From: Propionivibrio dicarboxylicus
GTDB taxonomy: Bacteria; Pseudomonadota; Gammaproteobacteria; Burkholderiales; Rhodocyclaceae
Length of the DNA stretch: 64,000 bases
Reading direction: 5' to 3'
Assembly: GCF_900099695.1 (NCBI RefSeq)
Contig: NZ_FNCY01000007.1
Location: 1 to 64,000, forward strand
Each line of letters begins with the position of its first letter. Within the stretch, counting starts at the first letter, position 1. The notes under the pieces are model-generated. The model searched no databases. It was not told the origin of the DNA and worked only from the letters and a program-made list of their open reading frames with translations. Both the position numbers and the translations under genes were made by a program. This document shows positions 22,032 through 42,112 of the stretch, piece after piece.

Positions 22032-22225
22032 GGGATCGTGAGACAAGGAACGCATCCGTCGGAAAGAAATCGAAAAATCGAAAGGAGACATTGACACAGC
22101 GGAACGCCGATTGGTTCGCGCTGTCGGAAGTGCGTATATTAAGCGGTTTTTCCTTTGCGCCCGGCACGAATGCAACGACGCCCGGGCCGGTTGAACCAGA
22201 CACACCTCATTGCACCAGGCATCTC

Positions 22226-25081
<2,856 letters not shown>

Positions 25082-25212
25082 CGAAAAAAACAACAAAATC
25101 GCCAAATTCTTCGCGAAAACCCGCGCCAACCCTCTTCACAGCTTGCATATGAAATGTAAGAATCTTCGCCGAGTACCAGACCGGCTCTCAACAATCACCA
25201 ACAGGAGATACC

Positions 25213-25509
25213 ATGAACAAGTCTGAATTGATCGATGCCATTGCAGCAAAAACCGAACTCTCGAAGGTTGCTTCCGGCAAGGCGCTTGACGCCGTCGTCG
25301 AAGCCATCGTTCAGGCTGTTGCCAAGGGTGACGGCGTAAGCCTCGTCGGCTTCGGCTCCTTCAAGGCATCGGCTCGTGCCGCTCGCGAAGGCAAGAACCC
25401 GAAGACGGGCGAAAAGATCAAGATCCCGGCAACCACCGTGCCGAAGTTCAGCGCTGGCGCCACGTTCAAGGCCGCCGTTGCCGCCGCCAAGGGCAAGAAG
25501 AAGAAATAA
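25213..25509 (+). CDS. hupB: DNA-binding protein HU
   Basis: 98 aa histone-like protein that bends and compacts DNA as a dimer. [18 protein letters not shown] is the typical start, [21 protein letters not shown] the DNA-binding arm region, and the end is unusually basic (AAAKGKKKK). AGGAG lies six bases before the ATG. It is monocistronic, with an intrinsic terminator after it. hupA versus hupB cannot be separated by sequence alone. Confidence 0.93.
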
Positions 25510-25630: not shown

Positions 25631-25706
<76 letters not shown>

Positions 25707-27235: not shown

Positions 27236-28594
27236 TCACTCACTAAGCCATTGCCTCAATACATCAAAAACCTCTCTGTTTGATTCTACTTCTTCAATTC
27301 TTGGCATGGAAGATCTGGAGGCCACAATAAGAGGCACTTGATCATCCGTCAGAGCAGCGGATATTACGCACGGTGAGTCAAATTGAGCCGATTCTCTGGC
27401 ACACCACATAGCCTGCCTGAGGGGATGGTCAGAAAATATAATGATCTGAGGCTCAACTTCGTTTTTTTCGAATTGATCCAATAGGTCAGAGAGTATATTT
27501 TCTGTCAGCTGTAAGTTTCGAGAGTATTGTTCTGCGATGCTACCCGTCCCTTGTGCAGGAGGATGAGGCAAAGGCAAGTGAGCGAACAATACCCCACCAT
27601 CGAGAAGCGTTGGCGCACGCCACAAGCTGGCAAGAACTTGGTCTCTAAGTTCTTGCCATGCTTCATGAGAGCGCTCCTGACAGCGACGCCCCGTCGGTTC
27701 GATCTGCACCCCGGATAGTCGTACCGCAGCACAAGCCCATCGATCACCATCAAATATTGCCCTAGGTGCAACTACAGATCGCTTGCAATAACGCAGGCCC
27801 TGAATTGCACAATATGGTTGAAAAAAACCCACTACATCTACATCATTTCTACGAACCTCTATTTTTGAAAAATCAAGCACTGCCGTTTGAGCACAAATGC
27901 GCGATAGACCACAAGCGCGTGCTTTCCGAAAATCCTTGTCAGCGAAAAGTACGGGTACCACTTCAGCGGTTGAGTTGTACGCCGGCGTCACGGGCTTATA
28001 GCTTACTGTCAATCCGTGGGAAACCAACACCCTTTGCAGTCCTTGACTGGCCTGGGCGTTTAACTCGTCCAACAACAAGACCACCATTGCGGTCTTTCTT
28101 GAATACTTTGATCCCCCAGTGGGTAGCCATACAACGGGTTCTGCAAAGATGTACCCGAAGATCAAAGTAGATGCTACGATCAAAGAGGGTAATATTCCCA
28201 CCAAGCCACGCAATTTCCCCCAGAGCGTGGCCGAAGCAGCATAATTAGCCCACAATCCAAAAAAAAACAGCGTCAGAAACGCTATCGCAGTCGTAGCCAC
28301 ACCAAACTCCTGGACCACAACCCCCTCGTAGCCACACCAAAGGCCGATTATTAGACTCACCCACAACCAGCGCCGAGCGAAAACGTAGACTTGGCCTAGC
28401 TCAACCCAACGCATAACAGCGAGCACAAGCCCGGATGCGATAAAATAAACAAATAGAAAGAGATCGTTAAAGGTGAAGTCATAGATCCCGTGATAGAACT
28501 TCCCGAGCAAAGTTGGAGCAAACAAAGCCACTACAGCGGCACTTCCAGCAGAAATGTCCCAAAGCAGTTCTCTGTCCGCCACCTTCAATTGCAC
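27236..28594 (-). CDS. Membrane-anchored alkaline phosphatase-superfamily (sulfatase-like) protein
   Basis: 452 aa. The first ~155 residues hold four or five membrane helices; the rest is a large extracytoplasmic domain. Motifs fit the alkaline phosphatase / sulfatase fold: VLLLDELN with D176 as likely first metal ligand, HLPLPHPP (H339, H344) and IIIFSDHPLR (D389, H390). Family members transfer or hydrolyse phosphoethanolamine, phosphoglycerol or sulfate groups on surface glycans. It overlaps the methyltransferase gene upstream by 10 bases and ends the minus-strand cluster. The substrate is not deducible; the residue normally acting as nucleophile is not obvious. Confidence 0.72.
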   Translation of the reverse strand: MQLKVADRELLWDISAGSAAVVALFAPTLLGKFYHGIYDFTFNDLFLFVYFIASGLVLAVMRWVELGQVYVFARRWLWVSLIIGLWCGYEGVVVQEFGVATTAIAFLTLFFFGLWANYAASATLWGKLRGLVGILPSLIVASTLIFGYIFAEPVVWLPTGGSKYSRKTAMVVLLLDELNAQASQGLQRVLVSHGLTVSYKPVTPAYNSTAEVVPVLFADKDFRKARACGLSRICAQTAVLDFSKIEVRRNDVDVVGFFQPYCAIQGLRYCKRSVVAPRAIFDGDRWACAAVRLSGVQIEPTGRRCQERSHEAWQELRDQVLASLWRAPTLLDGGVLFAHLPLPHPPAQGTGSIAEQYSRNLQLTENILSDLLDQFEKNEVEPQIIIFSDHPLRQAMWCARESAQFDSPCVISAALTDDQVPLIVASRSSMPRIEEVESNREVFDVLRQWLSE

Positions 28595-29898
28595 TTCTCC
28601 AACAACGCCAGAATCCGATGCCCACCAGAAAGGCTTATCTCCTCCTGCAATTTGAAGCCCGCGCTCAAAAAAGCTTGCCTTTGTTTGTCAAGACTAAAGT
28701 CGTCCGCATTCCTGCACCGTTGCGCGCAAAGTTGCAGGAGTTGCGAGTCTGTAGGGGCCAACCATTCTACGATTAACCAACGTCGAGAGCACGCTGCCGC
28801 AAAGTGCGCCACATTTTCCAAGCTTACCGCGGCGGAAACAGCCAGATGGTGCAAAAGGGCGAGCATCAACACAACGTCTGCGCAAGATTGCAGACGCTGC
28901 ATAAGCCCAGGATGCTCTTCCCCCCCCCAGCCACGCCCCGAATGTATGTCATCTAACCTTGCCAATACCGGAAAAAGCGCTAGGTTATTCCTACGCTGAA
29001 GGTACATGGATTGCACTGCGTCGTGATCCCCATCGAGAGCAATCACTTTTGACCCTACGTCCAGTGCTAATTGCGAAAACTCTCCTGAATTACACCCCAA
29101 ATCCAGGCTCCAAGAGGGGCATAGACGAACAAGCCATTGTGCCACCTGCTCACGCTTTTCCTTCAATGCGATCGCACTGTAATGATTTCGATCCGACGTG
29201 TATCGACTCCAAAGTGTTGAGCATTTCGATAAAGGCCGTACGCTATCGAGCATCCAGCGCAGAGACGTAATCAGGCGTCGACGATAAATCGGTGTTCGAA
29301 CATGCGCGGGACCTAATTGACCAGAATCAGCGGATTGAGAGTTCCCGTCAACCACTAATGGCCAGCAGCGTGATAAAAACCTCCGCCAACCCAATGTCTC
29401 TCGAACAAACTCTGGCTGCGCGCCCTCGCGAAACATCCTAAACACGTCGCGCGATTCCATACCAGTTGTGCGCGCTAACCAAAGTGGTGAAATGAAGTGT
29501 CGAACAAACTGTCCTGCCGCCCACCAGGCATGGGTCCGCATAGGCTCCAGCGATGTCAGATCGCAAAAAACCGGCTTACATCCGTCAAAGATGACATTCC
29601 ACGCACTAGCATCTTTGAGATCAGCGTCAACTCCATTGGCCCGTTCTAACAAATCCAGAGTCAAACAAGCCGCGTCAAACAGTTGGGCGCCACACCACTC
29701 TTCGGGAGAAGTCACGAAGGGAATTCGTGGAGAACACAAGCAGCGTTGATCAAGCCAATCAAAGGAAATCAGCATCCCTTCGTTTGCCCAAATTCGAGCG
29801 TGTTTGCCATAAAGGGGGTGGTTTGCAGGCATCTCCTCATATAAGAGACGATGCACTACCCCAACCCCCAATTCCAAGCGAGCTTGAGGGTCCCTCAT
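28585..29898 (-). CDS. Class I SAM-dependent methyltransferase with kinase-like N-terminal region
   Basis: 437 aa. The C-terminal half carries the SAM-binding motif DLGCNSGEF (266-274) and ALDGDHDAV. The N-terminal half contains LKDASAWNVIFDG (94-106) and VFCDLTSLEP (110-119), which resemble the catalytic and metal-binding loops of small-molecule kinases (D-x-x-x-x-N and D). Proteins of this two-part type are found in polysaccharide clusters, but their acceptor is unknown. ATGA overlap with the small membrane protein upstream and 10-base overlap with the phosphatase-like gene downstream make a coupled three-gene unit. Confidence 0.7.
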   Translation of the reverse strand: MRDPQARLELGVGVVHRLLYEEMPANHPLYGKHARIWANEGMLISFDWLDQRCLCSPRIPFVTSPEEWCGAQLFDAACLTLDLLERANGVDADLKDASAWNVIFDGCKPVFCDLTSLEPMRTHAWWAAGQFVRHFISPLWLARTTGMESRDVFRMFREGAQPEFVRETLGWRRFLSRCWPLVVDGNSQSADSGQLGPAHVRTPIYRRRLITSLRWMLDSVRPLSKCSTLWSRYTSDRNHYSAIALKEKREQVAQWLVRLCPSWSLDLGCNSGEFSQLALDVGSKVIALDGDHDAVQSMYLQRRNNLALFPVLARLDDIHSGRGWGGEEHPGLMQRLQSCADVVLMLALLHHLAVSAAVSLENVAHFAAACSRRWLIVEWLAPTDSQLLQLCAQRCRNADDFSLDKQRQAFLSAGFKLQEEISLSGGHRILALLEKCN

Positions 29899-30152
29899 TT
29901 GCCCTTGATCCAGTCAATCAGATTTCTTATAGCCCGAATCGGATTGCGAACAAAAATCAGCACAGCCCCAACACCCGCAATCAGGCCCTGCCAGATCAAC
30001 ATGCCACTACCAGGATCTACGTAAGCCCAAGCGCTCTCCGCAAACGTCAACCAGAGGAATGTAATGCGGAGCACAATTCGTAGGAAGAAAGCTCCATCTG
30101 CTTGGTATTTACACTGAGTCAGCCGTTCGAATTCTTGCATTCTGTAAATCAT
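29895..30152 (-). CDS. Small membrane protein with DPGSG motif
   Basis: 85 aa. Residues about 20-42 look like a signal or membrane segment ending AYVDPGSGMLIWQGL, followed by a second hydrophobic helix and a basic tail (RNPIRAIRNLIDWIKGK). Small proteins with an Y-(V/I)-DPGSG segment and a following helix accompany surface-glycan enzymes in other bacteria as I remember; no function is assigned. Starts at 30152 and 30140 are both possible. It is translationally coupled (ATGA) to the methyltransferase. Confidence 0.65.
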   Translation of the reverse strand: MIYRMQEFERLTQCKYQADGAFFLRIVLRITFLWLTFAESAWAYVDPGSGMLIWQGLIAGVGAVLIFVRNPIRAIRNLIDWIKGK

Positions 30153-30700
30153 TCATAAAGATATCTTGTTGACACAGGTCGGAGTCGCCTCTAAAGACGA
30201 CATCCACAGCCTTATGCGACAAGTCTGGCGAAATGCCGACGATCACCGTGTTCCAGCGACGAGGGCAAACTGCAGTGGACAGAGTTCTTGCTATGAGTAG
30301 CACTAAGTCTATATATCCGTGCCCACATACACGAAGGAAAACTCACATTTTCCGCCTCCGGCAATCTTGCTCGACGGCCTCTAGCTCCTTCAAGTAGCGA
30401 GGGAGTCAGCATGGACGCAATTTTCCGGACCGCAAATCGAACGGCGACAGAGAAACAGCCACTGCACATGGCCAACATACCCACAATAGACATTGTACCA
30501 GCACGACTTCAACCTAGTTACCCAGCGAGAAGTAGCAACGCAAGCTATTCTCGGGTGCCATCACTCTTTCCGAATTACCTACACAGAAGAGCTTATCGAG
30601 GCTGATAATAAGTTCGTCGAGCAGCGCGAATCAACTGCAAACGTAGATGCCACTGCTGAAAACCGCAGCCCTGGTGCCCGTTAGCATTTAGAAACATCCG
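30153..30700. other. Long non-coding gap inside the polysaccharide cluster
   Basis: 548 bases with no gene I can support. Short frames exist on both strands (for example 30109-30303 and 30212-30493 minus, 30411-30684 plus) but none has a ribosome site, a recognisable domain or continuous coding character. It may be eroded coding DNA, since the next gene upstream is itself shortened. A promoter for the three-gene unit downstream could lie here. Confidence 0.5.
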
Positions 30701-31351
30701 CTACAGACCAGTCAAGAATCTCATTGCACTAACAACGTGCCAATTATTCTTGCCCATACGCCGACAAATGTCGGCACCTTCCAAGTACATATAGAAGCGA
30801 CGAGAATCAAAGCCGCCAACTTGCTGAAATGCTTCCCTACGGAACGCTATAAACATGCCTGCTACCCAGTCCACTTGATACGGCGCAGATTGGATATCGT
30901 AGTCCGATTTGCGTTGTCGAAATACTACGCGCCGTGCAAATCTAAAAAATGTAGGAAACCTCCTCGCACTATCCTCAACCGCCCCCTCTGCAGACAAAAC
31001 CACAGGCGCCACTGCTGCAACCGATTTACTCTTGAATGGATCTAATAAGACAACGAAATCCAACGATTGAATCCGGATATCTGGATTAACTACTGCAAAC
31101 CAAGCAGTACTTGCATACTCAAACGCCGCGTTATGGTTCTCTCCAAAACCTTTAGGTGAAGCATTACGAATGATATGTAACGGAAATACGAAGCCTTGGT
31201 ACAAAGACTCATCTTCCGGAAGATTTACGGTAATAATTACTTCAAAGTTTCGTTGTGATAACGCAGCTAAGTCGTTCAGCAACTCTCTGACAAGAGCGGC
31301 CTGACCGTGACTGACGATAGAAAGTGTAATTTTCTCTGCTGACTGGAACAT
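30701..31351 (-). CDS. Glycosyltransferase family 2, C-terminally altered
   Basis: 216 aa; members of this rhamnosyltransferase-like group are usually 250-300 aa. Seen: start LSIVSHGQAALVRELLNDLA, the NPDIRI segment, the loop DWVAGMFIAFRREAFQQVGGFD and FYMYLEGADICRRM, all typical of GT2 enzymes adding a sugar to a lipid-linked glycan. After GKNNWHVV the protein jumps straight to SAMRFLTGL and a stop, whereas relatives have about 25-30 residues with a conserved His between these points. An in-frame deletion is the likely cause, so activity is doubtful. Confidence 0.72.
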   Translation of the reverse strand: MFQSAEKITLSIVSHGQAALVRELLNDLAALSQRNFEVIITVNLPEDESLYQGFVFPLHIIRNASPKGFGENHNAAFEYASTAWFAVVNPDIRIQSLDFVVLLDPFKSKSVAAVAPVVLSAEGAVEDSARRFPTFFRFARRVVFRQRKSDYDIQSAPYQVDWVAGMFIAFRREAFQQVGGFDSRRFYMYLEGADICRRMGKNNWHVVSAMRFLTGL

Positions 31352-31394
31352 AGACGATTGAGTATCAAAACATATAAGGAACCAACGAGCGGCA

Positions 31395-32396
31395 TCAGCT
31401 AAGGTCGATGGAGGAACCTAACCGACGAATCTCATCATTCGCGCTAGCGTAAGCCGCAACCACATCTCTCGGAGGCGAATACTGAAAAGGACTACCCTCA
31501 TCTCCGTGTCGCGGGAGCGACTGCACAAGAGCATCAATATCGGGATGAAACCGCGCACCGCCAGTGAAGAATTCCCTAAACACCGGTCGATCAAGTAATT
31601 CAACAGGCATCTTGGCTAATAATGCAGATGCAATTGGCCGCCCGAATCCTTCCTGTTCTGCGGCCGATGCTAATACATCAACGCAATTCATAAAATCATT
31701 CAGAGTCACATCATCACTTTTGACCAGTTCAATGCGAAGATCAGGGAAAAGCTTACAAATATAACTGAAGTAATCAGTTAGGTGCCCATAAACACGAAAG
31801 ACTAGGTTCTGCGACAGTACGGCACGCCGAACTGCTTCAAATAGTCGTTCGTAATTCTTTTTACTGGAATCAGTGCCTAACAAACCCACGCATGTGACGC
31901 CATCTAGCTTACGCCCCACTAGGTCAATCGCAGCTGGGGCCGGAAAACGATTCGGCGCAAAAAACATCCTATGATCCGGAATTCCAAGATCCGCAATAAA
32001 GGGCATGGCATCGCTGCGATTAATGTATCCAATTCGACAGTTAGACAGGAGCAATGACCATCGGAGCAAACACTTTTTAAACCGTGCAAGTTCTCCGATT
32101 TCGAATGGATACGCGTCATGCAGTATAATCAATTGCGTATCGAAAAATGGAATCGGATGTGATGTTGGGGTGTACAACAGATCTCCGCGCCGATTCGAAA
32201 TTCGAAGCCGACGCAAATACTCCATTACCGAACAGCCAACGACCTCGGTGTTAGGAAAAGCCATTTTTACCCGCTTTTCCAGAGACGGGCGAACCAATAT
32301 TGTTCGAACGAGATCAACATTTTCATTCAAATAGTCGAGCCCGTAGAAAAACAAGCCATTAGTTGCTTTTATATGGAACAGATTTGCCGTTATCAC
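31395..32396 (-). CDS. Glycosyltransferase, GT-B / family 4-like
   Basis: 333 aa. Features of retaining GT4 enzymes: VGLLGTDSSKKNYERLFEAVRR at the start of the C-terminal Rossmann domain and AEQEGFGRPIASALLAKMPV in the nucleotide-sugar loop. The usual second glutamate of the E-x7-E motif is replaced by Ser here (EGFGRPIAS). The N-terminal acceptor domain has LIILHDAYPFE. It probably adds one sugar of the repeat unit made by this cluster. Base composition is visibly AT-richer than in flanking housekeeping genes. Confidence 0.72.
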   Translation of the reverse strand: MITANLFHIKATNGLFFYGLDYLNENVDLVRTILVRPSLEKRVKMAFPNTEVVGCSVMEYLRRLRISNRRGDLLYTPTSHPIPFFDTQLIILHDAYPFEIGELARFKKCLLRWSLLLSNCRIGYINRSDAMPFIADLGIPDHRMFFAPNRFPAPAAIDLVGRKLDGVTCVGLLGTDSSKKNYERLFEAVRRAVLSQNLVFRVYGHLTDYFSYICKLFPDLRIELVKSDDVTLNDFMNCVDVLASAAEQEGFGRPIASALLAKMPVELLDRPVFREFFTGGARFHPDIDALVQSLPRHGDEGSPFQYSPPRDVVAAYASANDEIRRLGSSIDLS

Positions 32397-32527
32397 AAAA
32401 AACTCTTAGTAAGTATATTCTGGAAAATTATTTTCAACCCTACAACAATTTGTCAAGAGGCGATAAAAACACAACATAGCAAGAAACCTAATTAAAAAAC
32501 TTCGCCAATCCATTGATGTCCTAAAGC

Positions 32528-33754
32528 CTAACGCGGAACTCTAAACTTCGCGACGAGCAAATGCATAATTAAAAACAACACACACGAATAAGTAAATAAA
32601 ACAAATGCACCATACCAACCTGGTATTAACAGTACGAGCACCATATACCAAAATATATCTTTAGAAATTTCATTTCCGGATACCATTCTGAAAGCTAAAG
32701 AAGATACCAGCACGAGACCAGTTCCATAAATCACATGAAAAATGCAAAAATACGGCAGAACGAAAAACCATCCAATAAATGTAGGATTTGAATTCCAATT
32801 CTCAACCAATGAAAATGGATCTAATATATTAGCTATCGCTTGCCCAATATCAAGCTTATGAGGCTCAGAAAATAGCCTATCGAAAGCTAAGGAATGCAGC
32901 CCTTCTGCCCAAAACGGATAGACATTCCCGTCCATGACCATCCGCTCTAATTCAGTTGACAATTCATAAGTAGAAATCGCACTAGAAATAAGCTGAATAC
33001 GATTACCAATCTGTGAAATCGCAATCTCGAGCAGGGAAATAACATCAACATCAACATGTTGAGAGAGAAAACCATCTACAGTTACATCATCCAGAAAGGC
33101 GTAATAGCGGACAAAAATTTTTCCAAAGTACAAAACGGGATATGCCACGACGCAAGCGAAAAGAATAGCTAAAAATCTAGGGAATGTTAATCTACGCTTC
33201 CTAACAAGCTGGCAAGACTCGATAAACACAATTGTCAAAACAATGCCAAACCAACCACGAAGCAAATTCGAAACCAAGTTTACTCCCAGGTTGTATTTAA
33301 AATACTTCTCGTCTCTGTACGCACCATAATATAGTAAAAAAATAACATCAATGGGAATAAGAACCCAAATTTGAGAAATAAGTGAAGCATCGCTGGCGCC
33401 AGAACCAGCCAAACGTGACCCGCTAAAAAAGGAATATGCCGCAAAAGAAATTTGTAACACCAATATCAAAATGCCAATTCTATCAATTTCAATTTGGCTC
33501 GGAACAACACGGAACGAGATCGGGAAAATTCGATAAGAAAAATTGAAGACAATGAGATTAAAATATACAAACGACATCACAAGCAATACAAGAATGAAGA
33601 AAATTGGTGTACTCTCACCAATTTGCACAACGTTGGTTTCACCGTACAACCTATTTGTCGAAAAAATTAGCACCGAATAATAGACGTTAATCACCACATG
33701 CGCCAACAACCATATCAATCTCGGCTTTCTTCTGAAAATACTGGCCAATGTCAT
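32528..33754 (-). CDS. O-antigen / polysaccharide polymerase-like membrane protein (Wzy)
   Basis: 408 aa with about ten or eleven membrane helices and a larger extracytoplasmic loop in the second half (about 205-290). No catalytic motif is diagnostic, as is normal for Wzy proteins, which are poorly conserved. The identification rests on topology, length, strong AT bias and position among glycosyltransferases and a Wzx flippase. Wzy joins repeat units on undecaprenyl diphosphate at the periplasmic face. Confidence 0.7.
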   Translation of the reverse strand: MTLASIFRRKPRLIWLLAHVVINVYYSVLIFSTNRLYGETNVVQIGESTPIFFILVLLVMSFVYFNLIVFNFSYRIFPISFRVVPSQIEIDRIGILILVLQISFAAYSFFSGSRLAGSGASDASLISQIWVLIPIDVIFLLYYGAYRDEKYFKYNLGVNLVSNLLRGWFGIVLTIVFIESCQLVRKRRLTFPRFLAILFACVVAYPVLYFGKIFVRYYAFLDDVTVDGFLSQHVDVDVISLLEIAISQIGNRIQLISSAISTYELSTELERMVMDGNVYPFWAEGLHSLAFDRLFSEPHKLDIGQAIANILDPFSLVENWNSNPTFIGWFFVLPYFCIFHVIYGTGLVLVSSLAFRMVSGNEISKDIFWYMVLVLLIPGWYGAFVLFTYSCVLFLIMHLLVAKFRVPR

Positions 33755-33859
33755 ATCCTAGCAATAGTCGTTAACAAATATAAAAATATGGGATAAAGCC
33801 ATTAAAAACAAAACTCCACTCAACAGACACCTGTCGAACAACATACACAACTCGCAATT

Positions 33860-34600
33860 TTACAGAGTCCTAACCTTTATAAAATCACGAAAAATTGATT
33901 TCGCATGATTAAGAAAATACGGCACCGCAGCAACGACAAGAAATGGGTCTACAAATAATAGAAGCGTAAGAAAACCAAAATATATCTGCAAAGTTATCGA
34001 CTTAAGCGTTTTATCATCAACCAGGACAATTTCTTTTGCCCCAAGGTAGTGCAATAACTTAATTACCAAATGCGGCATCGCGGAAAAAACAAAATACAGA
34101 CAATTCGGCCCAAGCAGTATAATCCTTGAGACAATTTTTAATCCATTTAATACAATAAAGGTAATAATTCTTGCACGAGGAGACCGGAGTTCGTTGTGTA
34201 TTATAAAAAAGGGAACAATGCAAGCAGTGATAGCAATAGATTTTAGAATATCTCCGCCGCCGAGAGATGCCAAATAGTAGAACACAAAAAATACTACCGG
34301 AACACGATAAATAGCAAATGCCAAATAATTAAATTCAGAAAACTGGCTCCTAATGGTCGCTCCACTACGCTCCTTTTCCGCTTTGTAATCATTGTGCAGA
34401 TATCCAAAATCGTAAATACCATACACCAACACAAAACCAAACAAAACAAACTTGACATTAATAGAGTTGATGACAGCGATTAATAAATACGGTGCAAATT
34501 CCATTAACAGCAAACCGACCATACGTCCTACCGAAAAACGAGGCGAATATCGATAGAAAAATACAGCCCCAGGAAGAATACCGAGGATAAATTCTTTCAT
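33860..34600 (-). CDS. Multi-spanning membrane protein, possibly UbiA-like
   Basis: 246 aa, about seven or eight membrane helices. Residues about 60-80 read YGIYDFGYLHNDYKAEKERS: the ND pair followed by acidic residues loosely recalls the Asp-rich motif of UbiA prenyltransferases but is not a proper NDxxDxxxD. It overlaps the HAD phosphatase gene by ATGA. HAD-fold phosphatases paired or fused with UbiA-type proteins make decaprenyl-phosphate sugars in other bacteria, so a prenyl-linked sugar role is conceivable (inference). Could equally be an unrelated membrane protein. Confidence 0.6.
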   Translation of the reverse strand: MKEFILGILPGAVFFYRYSPRFSVGRMVGLLLMEFAPYLLIAVINSINVKFVLFGFVLVYGIYDFGYLHNDYKAEKERSGATIRSQFSEFNYLAFAIYRVPVVFFVFYYLASLGGGDILKSIAITACIVPFFIIHNELRSPRARIITFIVLNGLKIVSRIILLGPNCLYFVFSAMPHLVIKLLHYLGAKEIVLVDDKTLKSITLQIYFGFLTLLLFVDPFLVVAAVPYFLNHAKSIFRDFIKVRTL

Positions 34601-35154
34601 CTAGCTATTGTGAGTGTAAAGTTATCTAGAACGAGATAATTTTTTGACAAATTATAAAAATCCAGAGGGCTATCAGAATAAATCGACTTTATCTTCCGCC
34701 CCTGTAACTCAAGGAGTTTATAAATCCTGTACTTTTTACCGAGCAAATCACTATAGAGAAAGCCGAATATGGATCTACTTGAATAGACTGGAATATTTAA
34801 ATGGAGCGACAAATGTTTGACGACGTTACTAGGCGCCGCTGTTACCATTACCATTTCAATGCCAAGCCTGCGGTAACGGTCGATTCTATTTATTAGCCTC
34901 AAGTTAACCATGTTCGCGTCACCCATAATATCAATCGTAAAACGCTGAATATCATGATCGCAAATAAGAAACATCACGAAGTACTCAAATCGCCTCCTCA
35001 AACTACGATGTGGGAGCGCGGATATTATTGCGCACACAATCTTGTACGAAACACGCCGCAAATAAGAGCCTCCAAGCCAATTACTAATAATCAATTCATG
35101 CAAATTTTTTTTAACCAGAGTTTTATCGATATCAAAAACAATAATATTACTCAT
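34597..35154 (-). CDS. HAD-family hydrolase
   Basis: 185 aa. HAD motif I is clear: IIVFDIDKTLVKKN (nucleophile Asp, acid Asp). Motif II VMVTAAPSN and motif III/IV IYSDSPLDFYNLS are present. These enzymes dephosphorylate small metabolites. ATGA overlap with the membrane protein gene downstream and 8-base overlap with the glycosyltransferase-like gene upstream show tight coupling. A phosphatase acting on a lipid-linked or nucleotide-sugar precursor fits the context. Confidence 0.78.
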   Translation of the reverse strand: MSNIIVFDIDKTLVKKNLHELIISNWLGGSYLRRVSYKIVCAIISALPHRSLRRRFEYFVMFLICDHDIQRFTIDIMGDANMVNLRLINRIDRYRRLGIEMVMVTAAPSNVVKHLSLHLNIPVYSSRSIFGFLYSDLLGKKYRIYKLLELQGRKIKSIYSDSPLDFYNLSKNYLVLDNFTLTIAR

Positions 35155-36073
35155 TTTCGAATTCCGTTAGCCATTTCTCCAACCTGCAAACGGGATCCAG
35201 ATGTTCGCTCATGCAATGAACTGCCAAACCGGGGATAGGGGTTAATAGCACTCTCTTTAACTTAACCGTTAGGCGCTTAAACATTTGGTGATCATTTTTC
35301 GTGGAATATAGATATTTAAAATCCCGATTAAATACAGACTTCTTGAACAAAAATGTTCCACACGTCGAAGGAGCGCTAACCCAATGTCTAGTATTGGTGA
35401 CAAAAATAGTTGATTTTTTATAATTATTAGGCATCTTGTATCGATCTGGATGATCGTAAAGTGAAATATAATCGAACTTAATTTTCGAGTTGCTTAGCTC
35501 AAATACCTCATCGACCCAACCATGGGCGTGCAAATAGTCATTTTCGAGAACATAGACGATATCATCATCATTGGAAACAACGGAGTTAATCGCATCAAAC
35601 ATTGCCAGAACGGACTCAACAGCTGACGTCGCATCAACGATTTTAACGGTTACGTCAACCGAACAATTCTCCAAAAATTTAGATATCCCGTCCTCCAACA
35701 ACTGTTCTTGCGTTCCATTATAAAAAATGAAAACCTTGACTCTATTTCTATTCCGACTTTCTGAAATCGTATCGATTAAATTAATCAAGCATTTTAGATG
35801 ACTAAACCCTTCAGGCCTTGATTTGTTTGGAAATCTTGCTTTATCCTTACTGATGTGAACGTGCCTAAATATAACCACCAAATCGCCATTAACATTAGAC
35901 GACGTCACATCGGCACCTCGTCTATTCACCATATTTATCGATCTTTTCACCCCTCCCCAGCACCATTTTAAGAATCGATTCGATTTAATTTCATTGATGA
36001 GCTCATGCTTCCTTAGTAAGGCCCGGCCTTTCAATGACACTTGAAATTTCTCTTTTGAAATGTATAACGCCAC
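35147..36073 (-). CDS. Putative glycosyltransferase (GT-A-like)
   Basis: 308 aa, soluble. The middle segment DDDIVYVLENDYLHAHGWVD followed by FDYISLYDHPDRY resembles a GT-A nucleotide-sugar domain in which END takes the place of the DxD metal site; proteins with this pattern occur in surface-glycan clusters. The N-terminal 60 residues are basic. The acceptor and donor are unknown. It lies 12 bases downstream of wzx and overlaps the HAD gene by 8 bases. Confidence 0.6.
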   Translation of the reverse strand: MALYISKEKFQVSLKGRALLRKHELINEIKSNRFLKWCWGGVKRSINMVNRRGADVTSSNVNGDLVVIFRHVHISKDKARFPNKSRPEGFSHLKCLINLIDTISESRNRNRVKVFIFYNGTQEQLLEDGISKFLENCSVDVTVKIVDATSAVESVLAMFDAINSVVSNDDDIVYVLENDYLHAHGWVDEVFELSNSKIKFDYISLYDHPDRYKMPNNYKKSTIFVTNTRHWVSAPSTCGTFLFKKSVFNRDFKYLYSTKNDHQMFKRLTVKLKRVLLTPIPGLAVHCMSEHLDPVCRLEKWLTEFENE

Positions 36074-36085
36074 GAATGTCTTCCG

Positions 36086-37600
36086 CTAGTTATTCTCTGA
36101 CAGCCTATCGAACACCGTCTTACGAATATTACTGGATCCAACAGCCCCGAAAACTAATGACATTAAATAAATGATCAGCAAGATGCTGATATCCAAAACT
36201 CTATCGCCTGTGAAATTTATCAATTCTTTGGAAGCATAAACAAAAATACAGCACGGCAAAGCGATTTTTAACAAATCATCACGTAACCACCTCAGATGCC
36301 CGTTTCTGAAGAGAGCCGAGTGAATCACAGGCGTCCACAACACAAGAGAAATCAAATTAATAAGCAGCCAACTCCAACATGCCCCTTCCACTCCAAAACG
36401 TTTAACTGACCAAATTAGAACGGGATAATAGACCAACGCGTAAATAAAATTTCCAATAACATGCAGCCTTATTTTCCCTTCTGCGTATTGCAATAACAGA
36501 GGGAGTGACGCGAGCACCATTAAGCAATTTCCTAACGTATAGAACGCAAATACCTCACTGGCTTGATCCGAAACTAAAGAGTTACCGGTCCATAACTCAA
36601 TAATCTTGCCTGAATAAAAATACAATACAAGTGTCGCTGGAACTACCGCTACCGCCGTATATTGACTAACTCGTTTATAAAGAACCTGCATTTCCAAATG
36701 CATAGCAGAAGCATGGAGCAGGGCCATTTTCGGCACTGCTGCGCTCGTTATTGGCCCCCCTAACATCACTACACCACTCGCGAGAAGCACACCCACCGAA
36801 AAAAATCCATAATCGGACAAACTCAGAAGCTTTGAAAGTACTAATTTGTCAGACTGCGTAATTAGCGCCCACACCACTGACGTAAATGCAATCCCAGAAG
36901 AGAAACCAAACACTGGCTTCAATGATTCAACGACCGACTTTCGACTACTTCTAACTTCGCCAAAATTATTCCGAATTAATCGTCGACTTTTTTGGATCAA
37001 CCCAAATACTTCGATCGCTGCAACCATGACCTGAAAAACAAAAAAAGCGATAAACGATCCGTCGAACACAACCAATACCGGAATAACTGCTACAAATCGA
37101 AGCGTAGCAACAATACTATTCCATCCACTTAACCACAAAAATTTCTCAAACCCGGTAACTGTAGCCCGGTAGAAACCCGACATCCATCGCATACAAATAC
37201 TGCATGCCATCGCGACCAGAGCGAATTGAACCTCTGACACGTCTAGTCTATCAACATTGAGCCACGATCTCGAAATATATCCAGAAGAGGCCACCAGAAA
37301 TACGCACCCAACAATTGCAATAAACATAAAAACTATATTAATTGCACGCAATACATCAAAAAAACCGGCAAAACCATCCACCCCACCTCTGGTTCTCGCC
37401 GTTTCTCTGGCCAATGTTGGACTAAGTCCAAGATCAAGCATATTGAATAAGGACTGAATTAACGCGAAGATACTTACTAGAGCATATGCCTCCACTCCCA
37501 TCAATTTCAAGTACTGTGGCGTTGCCAAAATAGCTATTGCCGATACATATAACTGGCCCGCCAAATTTGATATTATATTCTTTCTTATATTATCAACCAT
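36086..37600 (-). CDS. wzx: Polysaccharide repeat-unit flippase (Wzx family)
   Basis: 504 aa with about twelve to fourteen helices. N-terminus NIISNLAGQLYVSAIAILATPQYLKLMG, then LFNMLDLGLSPTLARETARTRGG, is typical of Wzx/MOP exporters. It moves undecaprenyl-diphosphate-linked repeat units across the inner membrane. Together with the Wzy-like protein it defines a Wzx/Wzy-dependent pathway. AT-rich like its neighbours. Confidence 0.85.
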   Translation of the reverse strand: MVDNIRKNIISNLAGQLYVSAIAILATPQYLKLMGVEAYALVSIFALIQSLFNMLDLGLSPTLARETARTRGGVDGFAGFFDVLRAINIVFMFIAIVGCVFLVASSGYISRSWLNVDRLDVSEVQFALVAMACSICMRWMSGFYRATVTGFEKFLWLSGWNSIVATLRFVAVIPVLVVFDGSFIAFFVFQVMVAAIEVFGLIQKSRRLIRNNFGEVRSSRKSVVESLKPVFGFSSGIAFTSVVWALITQSDKLVLSKLLSLSDYGFFSVGVLLASGVVMLGGPITSAAVPKMALLHASAMHLEMQVLYKRVSQYTAVAVVPATLVLYFYSGKIIELWTGNSLVSDQASEVFAFYTLGNCLMVLASLPLLLQYAEGKIRLHVIGNFIYALVYYPVLIWSVKRFGVEGACWSWLLINLISLVLWTPVIHSALFRNGHLRWLRDDLLKIALPCCIFVYASKELINFTGDRVLDISILLIIYLMSLVFGAVGSSNIRKTVFDRLSENN

Positions 37601-37627
37601 TGATCAAAAATATTGTATAAACACAAT

Positions 37628-38044
37628 TTAAATTAATTCGACTTCCATAAAAAAACTATCTTCACTACTATCCACAACTCTGAACCCATTTTTGCTATAA
37701 AATCGAATTGCGGCATTATTCACTTTCAACACTTCCAGCCGGTAGCGCTGAAACCCCTTGCTCTTACAAATCTGTTTTGAATAATCTAGCAGAGATTGAC
37801 CCACTCCTGTTTTCCTCGCCGAATCGGCCACACATATCAAACTTAGATAACACAAAATCTTGTTCGGATCATTGCAATAAAAGAAAACAAATCCCAATAA
37901 GCTATCTGAGTTGTAAAGAGATAAAACCTCTGCATGTGTTGAAATTTTTGTTAAATACTCTCCTAGGTCTTTTCTGACAAACCCACCGCAATGGCGAGAA
38001 TTTTCGCTTTCTATAAGAGCAATAATATCCTTATTTATCTTCAC
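37628..38044 (-). CDS. GNAT-family N-acetyltransferase
   Basis: 138 aa. Acetyl-CoA binding loop VADSARKTGVGQSLLDYSKQ and the C-terminal LEVLKVNNAAIRFYSKNGFR are typical GNAT motifs. It overlaps the ATP-grasp gene by ATGA. With the aminotransferase two genes upstream it likely N-acylates an amino sugar or an attached amino acid. Confidence 0.83.
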   Translation of the reverse strand: MKINKDIIALIESENSRHCGGFVRKDLGEYLTKISTHAEVLSLYNSDSLLGFVFFYCNDPNKILCYLSLICVADSARKTGVGQSLLDYSKQICKSKGFQRYRLEVLKVNNAAIRFYSKNGFRVVDSSEDSFFMEVELI

Positions 38045-39237
38045 TCCACTTGGACCCTAATATCATTTTCCATGTTATCGACCATTTCTAACATTTCGTT
38101 CAAATCCTCAAATTTGAGAATCATTGTTCCAAGCGTGTCATTTGATCCGAGATATTTTCTTACTTTATCACCAGGCTTAACGTAAATATCCTGCTCGACA
38201 ATTTTTGTTTGCACCCGATCCGAAAGCCACAATTCCTTGAAAACACCATCTTCCAGCGAATGCACCATATAGCTCGACCAAAATCCTTTAGCCGGCTCCA
38301 TTTTCAATGCATGGCAAGGAATACCCACTGCTGCATCAACCGTATATTTGATCAAATCAATGCCTGTGGCATAGCGAATCACTTCAGGAATCAGGCACCC
38401 CCCATTACGAGGCCCCAATTCCAAAAAATAAAAATTACCACTCTCATCAAATACATAATCAAAATTGAGCGCACCAGTTTTCATGCCTAACAGGCTAAGT
38501 AAACGCTGCGATTCTGCGTGAGCCACCTCCAACCAGGGTTTCGGATGCGACGTGGGAAAAGTCTGACCAATTGGCACTAAGCCATTGCATAATTTGTCAA
38601 AATGTTCATCTGCCCAACTGCGAAAAACCAACTTGCCATCCACGATGAAGCCATCTCCCGCTACTTGGTAACGAGTACGGACAATTTGCTGTTCCACTAC
38701 CACTAACTTTTCTCGCGAATAATTCAAGGCGTGATCGAATGCTTTATCGAACTCGCTAGCATTAGTTAGTTTGGTAACGCCTTTGCTGCCAGAAGAATCA
38801 ACTGGTTTAATAAATGCAGGCAACCCGATTTCGCTTAGCCAAACGCGAGCCTCCTCACGATCGTAGAAAGACTGCGAGCGAGGCACATTGAAGCCATGCT
38901 CTTTTAAAAAGGCACGAAATAGATCCTTGCGCGCCAAAGTGAGGACTGATTGATAGGGATTTCCAGGCAAACCCATTTTCTCAGCGACATAGGCGGCCGT
39001 AGGCGCCGCCGGATCTGACGCATATGCAACGATGCCATCAATTTTCAGTTGTTTCGCGAGCTCGAGCACAGCATCTTTGTCTGTCGTGCTTACGTTATGC
39101 CATTCGTCTGCAAGCTTATGTCCTGGGTTATCTGGCAAGTAGTCACAAGTGATGATGTAATGCCCCTGGGCTCGCGCATAATGAAGAGGGGGAACCTGCG
39201 TTGGCGCAGCACCAAGAAAGAGAATTCTTTTTCCCAT
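38041..39237 (-). CDS. ATP-grasp ligase
   Basis: 398 aa. N-terminal dinucleotide-like fold (KRILFLGAAPTQVPPL), central ATP-grasp with FIKPVDSSGSKGV (ATP-binding Lys) and the C-terminal metal site FYFLELGPRNGG. Such enzymes ligate a carboxylate to an amine using ATP. ATG 39237 is used because AAAGGA is seven bases before it; an in-frame TTG two codons earlier overlaps the aminotransferase stop. Next to an amino-sugar aminotransferase and a GNAT, it may attach an amino acid or other acid to the amino group (inference). Confidence 0.82.
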   Translation of the reverse strand: MGKRILFLGAAPTQVPPLHYARAQGHYIITCDYLPDNPGHKLADEWHNVSTTDKDAVLELAKQLKIDGIVAYASDPAAPTAAYVAEKMGLPGNPYQSVLTLARKDLFRAFLKEHGFNVPRSQSFYDREEARVWLSEIGLPAFIKPVDSSGSKGVTKLTNASEFDKAFDHALNYSREKLVVVEQQIVRTRYQVAGDGFIVDGKLVFRSWADEHFDKLCNGLVPIGQTFPTSHPKPWLEVAHAESQRLLSLLGMKTGALNFDYVFDESGNFYFLELGPRNGGCLIPEVIRYATGIDLIKYTVDAAVGIPCHALKMEPAKGFWSSYMVHSLEDGVFKELWLSDRVQTKIVEQDIYVKPGDKVRKYLGSNDTLGTMILKFEDLNEMLEMVDNMENDIRVQVE

Positions 39238-39239
39238 GT

Positions 39240-40355
39240 TCAAGTCCTTTCTATAATTAGATTGATAACCCGTTCAACAGCTTCGTCGCTGAGACTTGGA
39301 TAGATCGGCAAACACAACACCTGCTCCGCAGCCTTGGCTGCCACAGGGAGATTTGAACGGACAGCTGACGGGAGCCCCCGATACATAGGGAAATCACTTA
39401 TCAGCGGATAGAAATAACGTCTCGCATTAATTCCGTTATCCTTTAACTTTTGATAGAGCTCATCGCGACACATAGAGTAGTCGGACTCTACCAAAATCGG
39501 AAAATAGGAGTGATTGGCGACAATTTGTCCCGAACTAGAAACGCAGCGTATTCCTCTAACCCCACATAACCGACGACGATAGTGAGAATCAATTTCAGCA
39601 CGGCGTTCCATTACATAAGGCATATGTTTTAGTTGTAATAGCCCGAAAGCAGCGTTAATTTCGCTCATCTTTGCGTTAATGCCAGGGGCAGCAACAGTAA
39701 TCTCATCAACGAAGCCGAAGTTCTTCAGGTGATCGATCCGCCGTTTAGTTTTCGCATCCGGGCAAATGATAGCCCCACCCTCGAACGTGTTAAATACTTT
39801 GGTGGCATGAAAGCTAAGGATGGACAAATCACCATAATTAAGCACACTACCTCGTTGGCACTGCACACCAAAAGCATGCGCCGCATCATATATGACACGC
39901 AAGTTGTAGTTGTCAGCGATTTTTTGGATAGCGTCAACGTCGCACGGGTTCCCATAGCAATGAACCGGCATGATTGCAGTCGTCTTGGGGGTAATTGCGG
40001 CCTCAATCTTTGCGGGATCCATATTCAGTGTTTGCGGCTCCACATCGACAAAAACAGGTTTGTTACCGTGCCACAAAAGTGAATGGGCTGTTGCGACAAA
40101 GCTGTAGGGCGTGGTAATGACTTCTCCCGCAACCCTTAACGCTTGCAAAGCAGTGATTAGGGCCAGTGTTCCATTGGAGAAGAGAGCCACATATTCAACG
40201 CCCAAGTACTCACAAAGGGCTTGCTCCAATTGCTGGTGGAAGGGCCCTCCATTAGTGAGTATCTTATTTTTCCAAATATGCTCTAGATAAGGCGTGAATT
40301 CTTCTAATGGTGGCAGGTAGGGCTGTGTAACAAAAATAGGTTGAATATTATCCAT
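39240..40355 (-). CDS. DegT/DnrJ/EryC1-family sugar aminotransferase (VioA-like)
   Basis: 371 aa PLP enzyme that converts a nucleotide keto-sugar into an amino sugar. Catalytic K186 in SFHATKVFNTFEGG; DAAHAFGV and GNPCDVDAI are typical. The N-terminal half (PYLPPLEEF, KILTNGGPFHQQLE) matches VioA-type enzymes that make dTDP-4-amino-4,6-dideoxyglucose, as I remember them. The keto-sugar donor genes (for example rmlA/rmlB) are not in this cluster and would have to be elsewhere. Confidence 0.85.
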   Translation of the reverse strand: MDNIQPIFVTQPYLPPLEEFTPYLEHIWKNKILTNGGPFHQQLEQALCEYLGVEYVALFSNGTLALITALQALRVAGEVITTPYSFVATAHSLLWHGNKPVFVDVEPQTLNMDPAKIEAAITPKTTAIMPVHCYGNPCDVDAIQKIADNYNLRVIYDAAHAFGVQCQRGSVLNYGDLSILSFHATKVFNTFEGGAIICPDAKTKRRIDHLKNFGFVDEITVAAPGINAKMSEINAAFGLLQLKHMPYVMERRAEIDSHYRRRLCGVRGIRCVSSSGQIVANHSYFPILVESDYSMCRDELYQKLKDNGINARRYFYPLISDFPMYRGLPSAVRSNLPVAAKAAEQVLCLPIYPSLSDEAVERVINLIIERT

Positions 40356-40559
40356 AATTTTCTCTCTACCTTAAAGACGACATGCAGTATATTGTCGCTT
40401 ATATTCCGTATTGCACCGTTTTTCCAGATGCTGCTCTACAAGCGAAGACGAATTCTCAGCACCAACCACAAACAAAAGATGCCTTGAAAAGCCTGCGCTG
40501 GTTAGCGTCCTCAAACGAGTCTCTGTACCACCGCGGGGAGTTGGAGGCGATCACATTGG
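40356..40559. other. Gap between regulator gene and aminotransferase gene
   Basis: 204 bases with no gene. On the minus strand TATACT (40388-40393, complement) lies about 33 bases upstream of the aminotransferase start and could be a -10 element, but no good -35 is seen. No ops element lies here. Confidence 0.4.
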
Positions 40560-40925
40560 TCATACTTCTTGACCAACCTTCGCGCAGGCCTTTTCAACCT
40601 CAGATCTCAGAGCCTCAATTTCTGCCTTTAACGCCTCGTATTCGTTCATCTTGCGCTGCAGAAAACGTTGGGTAATGGCCGCTTTTTCGGCCATTCCGCT
40701 CGGCGTGAGCACATAGACGTAGCCGAACTTATTCTTGGAGTGAGCGAAATTTTTCATCTTCACCAAACCTTTTTCAATCAGCGCTTTGAGGCAGTAGTTC
40801 AGCCCTCCGACGCTGATACCGAGTTTCTCGGCCAGTTCTCGCTGTGTGAGGTCCGGGTTATCTTGCAGGATCCGCATGATCCTAAAATGAGTATCTTCCT
40901 GGATTTTAGCTTGGCGACTAGTCAT
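40560..40925 (-). CDS. EPS-associated MarR-family transcriptional regulator
   Basis: 121 aa. Winged HTH: DNPDLTQRELAEKLGISVGGLNYCLKALIEKGLVKMKNF, then a coiled-coil tail (FLQRKMNEYEALKAEIEAL). I recognise this as the short MarR-like regulator found beside exopolysaccharide gene clusters and NusG/RfaH paralogues. It is the first gene after the minus-strand ops element, 45 bases downstream of it. It may control the cluster promoter. Confidence 0.85.
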   Translation of the reverse strand: MTSRQAKIQEDTHFRIMRILQDNPDLTQRELAEKLGISVGGLNYCLKALIEKGLVKMKNFAHSKNKFGYVYVLTPSGMAEKAAITQRFLQRKMNEYEALKAEIEALRSEVEKACAKVGQEV

Positions 40926-40970
40926 GTGGGCACATTGAGGCGCGGGACCGACGTCAATACCGCTTCGGGC

Positions 40971-40981
40971 ACGCTACCGCC
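40971..40981 (-). promoter_or_regulatory. ops element (RfaH recruitment site), minus strand
   Basis: On the minus strand reads GGCGGTAGCGT, a full match to the ops consensus GGCGGTAGCNT. It lies 45 bases upstream of the EPS regulator gene, inside the probable leader of the minus-strand polysaccharide operon, and 239 bases from the rfaH start. RfaH binds ops on the exposed non-template strand of a paused RNA polymerase and then suppresses termination. Confidence 0.8.
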
Positions 40982-41219
40982 TTGCCGTGTCACGATCGGC
41001 AAGCGCGAGTAGCGAAAACGTTTCCTACAATTTCTGTTTGAACTTGAACATTCTACCACCTGTCATATACAGGAGTCCACTTCAGCAGAACTGTACAAGT
41101 ACAACAACTGCTGAACTAATCTCTCGCCACACCAAAGAACTGCTCCCTGCAGATAAATTGCCGCATCAAGCCCCAAAGAGTAGAATCCGTCGCTGGCTGA
41201 CTTTTGGGGAGGTTGCGCA

Positions 41220-41717
41220 ATGCACTGGTATCTCGTCCATACCAAACCCAAACAAGAAAAGTGTGCGTTGGAGAACCTTGTGCGGCAAGGGTATCAGTGC
41301 TACCTCCCGACGCTGCCCTGCGAAAAAATCTGTCGCGGCGCGTTGGCGCTCAGCGAAGAGCCGCTGTTTCCCCGCTATCTCTTCATCCACCTCGGTCTGG
41401 ATGACTCGGCAAAAAGCTGGGGACCCATCCGCTCCACCAAGGGCGTCAGCCGCTTGGTCAGTTTCGGCACATCCCCTGCCAAGGTGCATGACACCTTGAT
41501 CGACCACCTCAAGGCGCATGAGGCCGATGTACACACCACTCCGGCGCGTATCTTCTCGCCGGGAGAACGCGTTTGCCTGACAGAAGTCCCCTTTGCCGGC
41601 ATCGAAGGCATTTACCAGATGGCAGACGGTGAACGACGCGTCATGGTGCTGATCGAACTGATGAGCAGGCCGGTGAGCGTCCGTGTGGCGCCGACGGCAT
41701 TACGCAAGGTAGGCTGA
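41220..41717 (+). CDS. rfaH: Transcription antitermination protein RfaH
   Basis: 165 aa NusG paralogue. N-terminal NGN domain MHWYLVHTKPKQEKCALENL; the RNA polymerase-contact segment EKICRG...LSEEPLFPRYLFIHL and STKGVSRLVSFGTSPAKV match E. coli RfaH closely, which separates it from general NusG (no KOW PGEMVRVxDGPF sequence of the NusG type in its usual form). GGGGAGG lies nine bases before the ATG. It sits between two divergent glycan operons, each with an ops element, so it probably controls both and possibly only these. Confidence 0.93.
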   Translation: MHWYLVHTKPKQEKCALENLVRQGYQCYLPTLPCEKICRGALALSEEPLFPRYLFIHLGLDDSAKSWGPIRSTKGVSRLVSFGTSPAKVHDTLIDHLKAHEADVHTTPARIFSPGERVCLTEVPFAGIEGIYQMADGERRVMVLIELMSRPVSVRVAPTALRKVG

Positions 41718-42112
41718 AAAAGAGACTGATGCCATAGTCGGTAAATCTGAGTTACCCCTATCGCATCCTGCAGCCGGAACATTCAAAAGAACCGGCGTTT
41801 GTGGCACAATCCGCCTTCTCTCAACGCAAATTTGGGCATCCCTCATTCGGTTTTGCTTTGTGCATCTCCAAAGAAGCGCGCTTGTCGATCGTAGAACGAC
41901 AGGGCGGTAGCCTGCCCAACTTTGCCCTGAATCCGGGTCGCCTCCGGTTCGCGAACTTCAATCGACAGCCAAACACCATCGGCGGGGAGTTCCCGAATTG
42001 CATACGCATGGAGACAACCCGATCTTATCGGTAACAACGCGGCATCGATGAGTTGTTAGCTGTTATCCGGCGAATCGCCTTCTCACCCGCACATACCCCC
42101 TAAACAGGATCA
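41718..42112 (+). other. Leader region of the plus-strand glycan operon
   Basis: 395 bases between rfaH and the ABC flippase gene. It contains the plus-strand ops element at 41903-41913. Short frames in it (for example 41801-42034) have no ribosome site or domain. It is likely a promoter plus a long untranslated leader of at least 200 bases. No strong terminator after rfaH is visible, so read-through from rfaH is possible. Confidence 0.6.
41903..41913 (+). promoter_or_regulatory. ops element (RfaH recruitment site), plus strand
   Basis: GGCGGTAGCCT, a full match to GGCGGTAGCNT. The sequence GGGCGGTAGCCTGCCC can form the small hairpin GGC-GGTA-GCC expected of ops DNA. It lies 199 bases upstream of the ABC flippase start. 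The longer JUMPstart sequence around ops in enterobacteria is not recognisable. Confidence 0.78.

Follow-up and report, generated by a model that had tools for sequence, protein, structure and literature searches.

In Enterobacteria, long glycan operons are preceded by the JUMPstart leader (RF01707) with its ops core, and a conserved stem-loop has been described in gammaproteobacterial JUMPstart sequences (in the relevant part of Weinberg et al. 2010, PMC2864571). According to the sections of PMC11001881 that bear on the pause, E. coli polymerase pauses at U11 of ops, and this pause is biochemically distinct from a hairpin-stabilised one. Substitutions K10F and R73D in E. coli RfaH cause strong ops defects and changes to its HTT motif lose antipausing (portions of PMC2871177), and a ribosome-binding site is often missing at E. 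coli RfaH targets, as stated in part of a 2026 preprint (PMC13015549). The same portion of that preprint proposes that RfaH proteins encoded beside long operons are monomorphic and ops-independent. Envelope genes and an HTH regulator have been described beside some RfaH clusters (Wang et al. 2020, PMC7593976, in the section on neighbourhoods). Our search of the open-licence literature brought up no study of JUMPstart or ops in Betaproteobacteria, which is not proof of absence. Here we analyse a 64-kb stretch of DNA, referred to throughout as the window, in which an rfaH gene lies between two divergent ops sites.

Two divergent ops cores within an extended leader

The sequence-only reading held that two full matches to the ops consensus lie divergently around rfaH, each facing a glycan cluster. 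This is confirmed: both cores are present, both are oriented away from rfaH and both point into glycan gene clusters. The features of the locus are as follows.

25631-25706: tRNA-Ala(cgc), at the rfaH-distal end of the left cluster
25914-26747: IS3-type transposase gene, after the tRNA, likewise at the rfaH-distal end
27236-40355, minus strand: left glycan cluster (DegT aminotransferase, ATP-grasp, GNAT, Wzx-like, HAD, Wzy (NF033860), GT2 and unknown proteins)
40560-40925, minus strand: marR, EPS-associated MarR-family regulator (TIGR04176), first left gene
40965-41013, minus strand: left JUMPstart-like leader element, of the marR operon (65.8 bits to model R1)
40971-40981, minus strand: ops core GGCGGTAGCGT, with G12 at 40970
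40983-41001, minus strand: left predicted RNA hairpin, TGCCG-9 nt-CGGCA (arms 41001-40997 and 40987-40983), 1 nt before ops
41050-41079, minus strand: left predicted promoter, TGGACT-N18-TAGAAT with TG before the -10, by consensus match only
41220-41717, plus strand: rfaH (TIGR01955, 164.7 bits)
41782-41810, plus strand: right predicted promoter, TTCAAA-N17-CACAAT with TGTGG before the -10, a conserved motif
41871-41919, plus strand: right JUMPstart-like leader element (53.7 bits to R1)
41883-41901, plus strand: right predicted RNA hairpin, TGTCG-9 nt-CGACA (arms 41883-41887 and 41897-41901), 1 nt before ops
41903-41913, plus strand: ops core GGCGGTAGCCT, followed by G12
42113-62930, plus strand: right glycan cluster within the window

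The two cores are the only exact matches to GGCGGTAGYNT on either strand of the window; 100 shuffles of the window gave a mean of 0.13 matches and never reached two (0/100). Each core carries GGCGGTAG with T11 and G12 on the non-template strand of a leader, the left one before marR and the right one, which has a C at position 10, before an ABC transporter gene. With one mismatch allowed, the window held 10 ops-like 11-mers against 10.97 expected, which is chance level, and GGCGGTAGYNTG occurred 6 times genome-wide against 15 times for the pattern read backwards. The 11-mer alone is therefore weak evidence, and it is the extended element that settles the reality of both sites.

Each ops core forms the 3' end of a conserved leader of about 49 nt that comprises CGCGC, a 5-bp hairpin, a 9-nt loop, a 1-nt spacer and ops. 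We collected 55 loci with relatives of the window RfaH from public genomes, and further loci from the genomes of relatives. An alignment of 44 ops sites (excluding L001-L006, L010 and L043) revealed about 27 conserved upstream bases with the consensus CGCGCTTGCTGATCGTGAAACGGCA, one free base and then GGCGGTAGCGTGCC; both window sites carry the upstream half of this consensus. CGCGCTTGYYGATCGT lies directly 5' of both ops sites with 0 mismatches, and the third match in the window has 2. Two reduced alignments were also made, A1 keeping 40 of the 44 rows (the two window sites, L027 and L062 removed) and A2 keeping 33 of those 40 (L015, L016, L018, L022, L044, L048 and L052 removed). Model R1, a covariance model from 33 relatives with the window excluded, found the left element at E 5.3e-14 and the right element at E 1.1e-10 across the whole 4.53-Mb genome; the third-best place (L089; 24.5 bits, E 0.011) has the ops core and lacks the conserved upstream half. 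There are only two strong copies in the genome, one on either side of its sole RfaH gene. At the four other genomic places with GGCGGTAGYNTG (L003-L006), R1 detected no element, and the hairpin test found a weak hairpin in two (p 0.108 and 0.444) and none in the other two.

Leader hairpins, promoters and neighbouring repeats

Pairing of the predicted hairpin was assessed with the register fixed on ops and identical 24-nt upstream stretches counted once (L001-L007, L079-L089, L106, L108, L110, L111, L113, L123 and L142-L144 were excluded, as were, at L115, L118, L119, L139, L140 and L146, sites without GGCGGTAGCGT). Full 5/5 pairing with a 9-nt loop and a 1-nt spacer occurred in 34 of 54 sites, and 218 of 270 cells were paired, compared with a mean of 182.3 and a maximum of 207 in 5000 whole-arm shuffles. 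Among the 31 distinct arm pairs, 108 of 155 cells were paired (shuffle mean 83.3, maximum 105; 0/20000 reached the observed value) and 12 arm pairs were perfect (shuffle mean 5.8; 4/20000 reached 12), and pairing dropped to 27-52% when the register was slid off the ops position. Three E. coli K-12 sites share the 5-9-1 geometry with other letters, namely CTGGT/GCCAG (rfb), TTGGT/GCCAG (wza) and CAGGT/GCCTG (waa). Tested singly, 16 of 52 sites reached p<0.05 against shuffles (median p 0.12), and the E. coli sites gave p values of 0.205, 0.265 and 0.020. Within the main leader type no pair differed from its commonest form at both positions, and covariation was weak (30/500 shuffles reached the paired percentage and 25/500 the covariation score); as judged from the alignments, support for the predicted hairpin comes from including other leader types, not from the main type alone.

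Where most relatives have a C-G pair, the right hairpin has T-A, both partners being changed together; L164 shares this substitution. For the plus-strand leader a longer alternative fold is also predicted, and in predicted folds a conserved CGC pairs with the ops RNA, a pairing that cannot covary, ops being the alignment anchor. The base of the hairpin lies 12 nt from U11; in the his pause, the distance from hairpin to pause is about 11 nt. Because the ops pause is stated to be distinct from a hairpin-stabilised pause (PMC11001881), we can only hypothesize that the hairpin has a role in the natural leader.

The motif TGTGG.A..AT lies 78-128 nt 5' of ops in 34 of 74 distinct sites, compared with a mean of 0.095 and a maximum of 2 in mononucleotide shuffles; the predicted left promoter lacks this motif, which is common to the leaders of many relatives. 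The first genes start at 40925 (marR, left) and 42113 (right), and inspection by eye shows no clearly strong ribosome-binding site before either. Between 40300 and 42200 nothing resembling an intrinsic terminator was found. Since the promoter motif lies between rfaH and the right ops site, a co-transcript of rfaH and the glycan genes with ops as an internal relay is probably not needed, though readthrough from rfaH may still occur.

Several repeats lie close by. The inverted repeat TTCAGCAG/CTGCTGAA, with a 19-nt gap, occupies 41081-41115 between the left promoter and rfaH, and CCTGT-N5-ACAGG was seen by eye within the predicted left promoter; both are possible candidate operators for the MarR protein. 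An 18-nt inverted repeat (83%; 41821-41838 and 41913-41930) could allow the start of the right leader to pair just behind ops. Another (40484-40498 and 40582-40597; 12 nt at 92% plus 8 nt at 100%) bridges the intergenic stretch that follows marR, and is possibly a candidate transcription barrier.

RfaH, the adjoining glycan clusters and the leaders in relatives

The window RfaH passes the cut-off of the NCBIfam RfaH equivalog (TIGR01955, 144.5 bits), matches E. coli RfaH (2oug) over its full length at 96.8 bits, and falls below the cut-off of the UpxY family (71.5 against 100 bits). It is the sole RfaH of the assembly, the other match being a NusG-like protein (27%; 56.8 bits to the RfaH model). 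Of the seven residues that contact ops in E. coli RfaH, K10, R23, Q24 and T72 are kept here and three are changed; E48 and R138, which form a salt bridge in the E. coli protein, are kept as well. R73 is changed to K (a position variable within the clade), R16 to C and H20 to N, and the HTT motif reads SWGP. The AlphaFold model (mean pLDDT 82.0) is confident for the N-terminal domain only, and its closest folds are E. coli RfaH in both states. Because its C-terminal domain is mixed, with two helices at block pLDDT 67-79 and no clean alpha-hairpin, the model leaves autoinhibition by this domain uncertain.

The left cluster begins with marR, whose product passes the cut-off of 88 for TIGR04176 (MarR_EPS) at 164.7 bits, and runs from 40925 to 27236 through genes for a DegT aminotransferase, an ATP-grasp, a GNAT and a Wzx-like protein, two proteins without a Pfam match together with a HAD protein, Wzy, one protein without a match, a GT2 and two further ORFs. 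The right cluster starts with an ABC flippase-like gene, whose product resembles MsbA/PglK/HepA below the cut-offs of those families, followed by PseB, aminotransferases, PseG, NeuB, cytidylyltransferases and acetyltransferases; then come nucleotidyltransferase, dehydratase, dTDP-sugar isomerase and C-methyltransferase genes of the deoxysugar/C-methyl kind. Same-strand ORFs extend past the window, with several glycosyltransferases and a Polysacc_synt_2 protein that ends at about contig position 75404. The right cluster is roughly 33 kb in size and of the pseudaminic-acid type. The presence of two different flippase-type genes suggests, from gene content only, that the two clusters make two separate glycans.

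Close rfaH copies with 300 nt or more of downstream sequence number 52 (a count that excludes one close copy with <300 nt and matches stopping short of residue 150). Of these, 32 are followed within 450 nt by an exact ops site on the same strand, a median of 170 nt after the rfaH stop (range 52-392). No opposite-strand ops was found within 450 nt downstream in any of the 52, none lay within 450 nt upstream in the 48 checkable close copies, and none occurred outside ±700 nt of rfaH in 422,327 bases of the same 55 loci. R1 scored at least 49 bits in four of the remaining 20 copies (L024, L038, L055 and L060), which leaves 16 of the 52 with neither signal downstream; no ops followed seven more distant rfaH copies (<55% identity). 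An rfaH gene linked to an ops-led glycan operon is the common state in related Betaproteobacteria, and the suggestion that linkage of rfaH to its targets is an unusual trait did not survive this comparison.

The element and RfaH also occur together across genomes. Of 150 family genomes, 20 match R1 at E<=0.01 and 11 at E<=1e-4; at the latter threshold the element is present in 10 of 17 genomes with an RfaH of at least 140 bits versus 1 of 133 without, with 7 genomes having such an RfaH and no element and 132 having neither (Fisher p 1.7e-10, the thresholds having been chosen afterwards and the genomes being related). At the level of the order, 16 of 399 genomes reach E<=1e-4 with R1. Nine of the 15 other element genomes of the order have an rfaH sequence within the 3-kb locus; of the six that do not, five have RfaH elsewhere in the genome and one (G235) has only an 88-codon fragment. 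In five genomes the element and rfaH lie on different contigs or 514 kb apart, so their co-occurrence is not just linkage. No full RfaH was found in 3 of 19 element-bearing genomes (G004, G030 and G235). Six of 28 genomes of the genus match R1, and a class-wide sample (our own genome plus 368) held no other genome with the element at E<=1e-4; searches of >40 genomes used stricter filters, by which weak matches are lost.

Other arrangements were seen in these loci. A second leader type, TTTTTTGGAATGACGCTYAATCCAAGGGCGGTAGCGTG-like, occurs in L015, L016, L022 and L129 beside an RfaH of 40-45% identity, which suggests that the flanking sequence of the leader varies in step with the RfaH clade. Two RfaH genes, with about 49% and about 75% identity to that of the window, lie about 4.4 kb apart in the same orientation in L024, L025, L026, L033 and L075 (rfaH at about 1600-2150 and 6001-6490), and also in G021:C32; in the five L loci no exact ops lies within 450 nt after the more distant rfaH of the pair. 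At G304:C9:63119-63370 an RfaH fragment with an internal stop lies beside a leader, with an intact rfaH about 5.5 kb off.

A second case of two leaders around one rfaH was not found with R1 in the family, order, genus or class samples, where R1 detects the main leader type only and other types could hide two-sided cases. The window's genome is the only one with two R1 matches among the 28 of the genus and, at E<=1e-4, among the 399 of the order; in the family sample, one genome (G175) carries a pair of strong elements that follow two separate rfaH genes, and another (G160) has its second element on another contig. Conservation of both ops sites in relatives of the same gene order holds for each half separately, the full two-sided order having been found in no relative. 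The right half (rfaH, leader, PseB at 80-83% and DegT at 62% identity) is kept in L059 and L068, and the left half (leader-marR) in L032, L153 and L157, with marR directly behind the leader at 78-79% identity in the latter two. In L032 (Burkholderia sp. lig30) a divergent leader-marR lies about 495 nt upstream of rfaH, and neither an exact ops nor an R1 match was found downstream of that rfaH. Leaders without marR as the next gene also occur in relatives. Only the second, divergent leader heading the marR operon is the unusual part of this locus.

A genome of the same genus (G026) has the order MFS, uvrA, a 98-aa ORF, tRNA-Ala(cgc), rfaH, leader, marR and glycan genes. Its first part is 95-100% identical at the protein level to window positions 20856-25509, and DNA similarity (93%) extends to window position 25745, just past the tRNA, after which the window has the IS3-type transposase, the left cluster and then rfaH. 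The tRNA gene adjoins rfaH in G026 (L167), L031 and L148. This comparison, which rests on one close genome, suggests, as the simplest reading, that insertion has placed a leader-marR-glycan cassette between tRNA-Ala and rfaH; as the rfaH genes of G026 and the window are only 73% identical, the whole island may instead have been replaced. The arrangement points to a tRNA-linked glycan island.

Candidate readings and comparison with known systems

Because the window protein is a TIGR01955 member and the sole RfaH of its genome, and because the genome has only two strong elements, a local regulon is the natural reading. The earlier proposal of a local, self-contained RfaH regulon stands insofar as two strong leaders flank the only RfaH of the genome, and not in its implication that such linkage is itself unusual. 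What we observe comprises both sites and the longer element around them, the confinement of strong copies to the surroundings of rfaH in this genome, the joint occurrence of element and RfaH in relatives, the pairing of the hairpin arms across lineages and the conserved promoter motif of the right leader. Pausing, recruitment and antitermination, and with them the control of both operons together, would follow by analogy with E. coli. In our judgement the two sites are probably RfaH-recruitment leaders, a betaproteobacterial variant of JUMPstart/ops, with one RfaH loading on both operons. Each glycan operon would have its own promoter; RNA polymerase would transcribe the leader, the 5-bp hairpin would form and the polymerase would then pause at the ops site, 1 nt downstream. 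The RfaH encoded between the leaders would bind the exposed ops strand and the polymerase, exclude NusG and Rho and aid ribosome loading, so that the marR-headed left cluster and the right cluster of about 33 kb would both be expressed to their ends. Retention of K10, R23, Q24 and T72 speaks for this reading. The changed ops-contact residues and HTT motif, the uncertain model of the C-terminal domain, the 16 of 52 rfaH copies with neither an exact ops nor an R1 match of at least 49 bits downstream, the three element-bearing genomes in which no full RfaH was found, the shortness of single hairpins and the alternative fold of the plus-strand leader count against it.

That both sites are chance matches to a short consensus, as the chance-level abundance of 11-mers of the ops kind across the genome might imply, is so improbable that we regard it as ruled out, since a model trained independently of both sites detects the 49-nt element at genome-wide E values of 5e-14 and 1e-10. 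We consider it unlikely that one leader only is functional for the local RfaH, the other being a cassette-borne relic or weakly served; the functional one might be either the leader in the typical rfaH-leader-operon order or the high-scoring left leader. The lower score of the right element (53.7 versus 65.8 bits) and its C at position 10 would fit this explanation, as would the left leader's lack of the TGTGG promoter motif, and a two-sided layout not found elsewhere with R1 is what a recent insertion by tRNA-Ala would predict. However, hairpin, spacer, ops core and G12 are kept in both elements, and the paired C-G to T-A change in the right hairpin suggests selection.

Alternatively, this RfaH might be a constitutively active homologue that does not switch fold, lies beside its operon and works in cis independently of ops, with the ops-like element mainly serving another purpose such as a ribosome-loading pause or a site for the MarR protein. 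Monomorphic RfaH homologues beside long operons are said to act without ops in the cited portion of PMC13015549, the AlphaFold model has no clean alpha-hairpin and several ops-contact residues differ. Against this, GGCGGTAG, which is read by E. coli RfaH, is invariant in the aligned set (a set selected on these bases), leaders exist without marR as the next gene, and element and RfaH are found together even in genomes where they are not linked, an outcome not expected from action in cis. On balance we hold action in cis to be rather improbable.

More tentatively, and with less than even confidence, we propose that JUMPstart is a two-part loading signal across Beta- and Gammaproteobacteria, an RNA hairpin combined with an ops DNA hairpin read by RfaH, that a linked rfaH with a retained ops is an intermediate, and that a second leader-marR-glycan cassette was added in the opposite orientation to give a two-sided regulon. 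Were JUMPstart such a signal, the nascent-RNA hairpin, with its base 12 nt behind the U11 pause, could block backtracking of the polymerase, and the linked rfaH with a retained ops would be an intermediate unforeseen by a model in which action in cis without ops is followed by action in trans with ops. The betaproteobacterial leader, missed by public RNA models, provides an independent alignment for testing the JUMPstart hairpin apart from ops, and the natural occurrence of rfaH both next to and remote from ops-led operons bears on the passage from a general to a targeted elongation factor. The locus also suggests a route by which glycan cassettes added beside an existing antiterminator fall under its control at once. 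For specialists the betaproteobacterial JUMPstart and the combination of linkage with an ops leader are of most interest; appealing as it is, the two-sided layout is a single case.

Like the JUMPstart/ops leaders of Enterobacteria (RF01707), the window element precedes long glycan operons and ends in an ops core, with a stem-loop before ops, and like those of E. coli K-12 rfb, wza and waa it has a 5-bp hairpin, a 9-nt loop and a 1-nt spacer; unlike them, it differs in the letters of the hairpin and flank. We rejected the Rfam JUMPstart model as a detector, since scores here fell below its threshold though the E. coli controls were found (all three sites at 55-60 bits): the right site scored 14.1 bits against a gathering score of 35, the left site was absent from the matches listed, the window site ranked 7th in its own genome, the whole window gave no match, and none of the loci of 14 relatives reached the gathering score. 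The protein resembles E. coli RfaH in passing the TIGR01955 cut-off with a full-length match, and differs in some ops-contact residues and the HTT motif and in the position of its gene between its two likely targets. As with the NusG paralogues UpxY, LoaP and TaA, the regulator gene lies beside the controlled operon (PMC7593976); unlike in those systems, there is a recognisable ops element, and the protein scores below the UpxY cut-off. The gene neighbourhood is similar to RfaH clusters CL2-CL8 (envelope genes) and CL4 (HTH regulator) of Wang et al. 2020, which the relevant section of that study describes by neighbours and not by ops sites. An rfaH gene beside its operon, together with a conserved ops leader, fits neither pole of the model neatly as set out in the cited part of PMC13015549.
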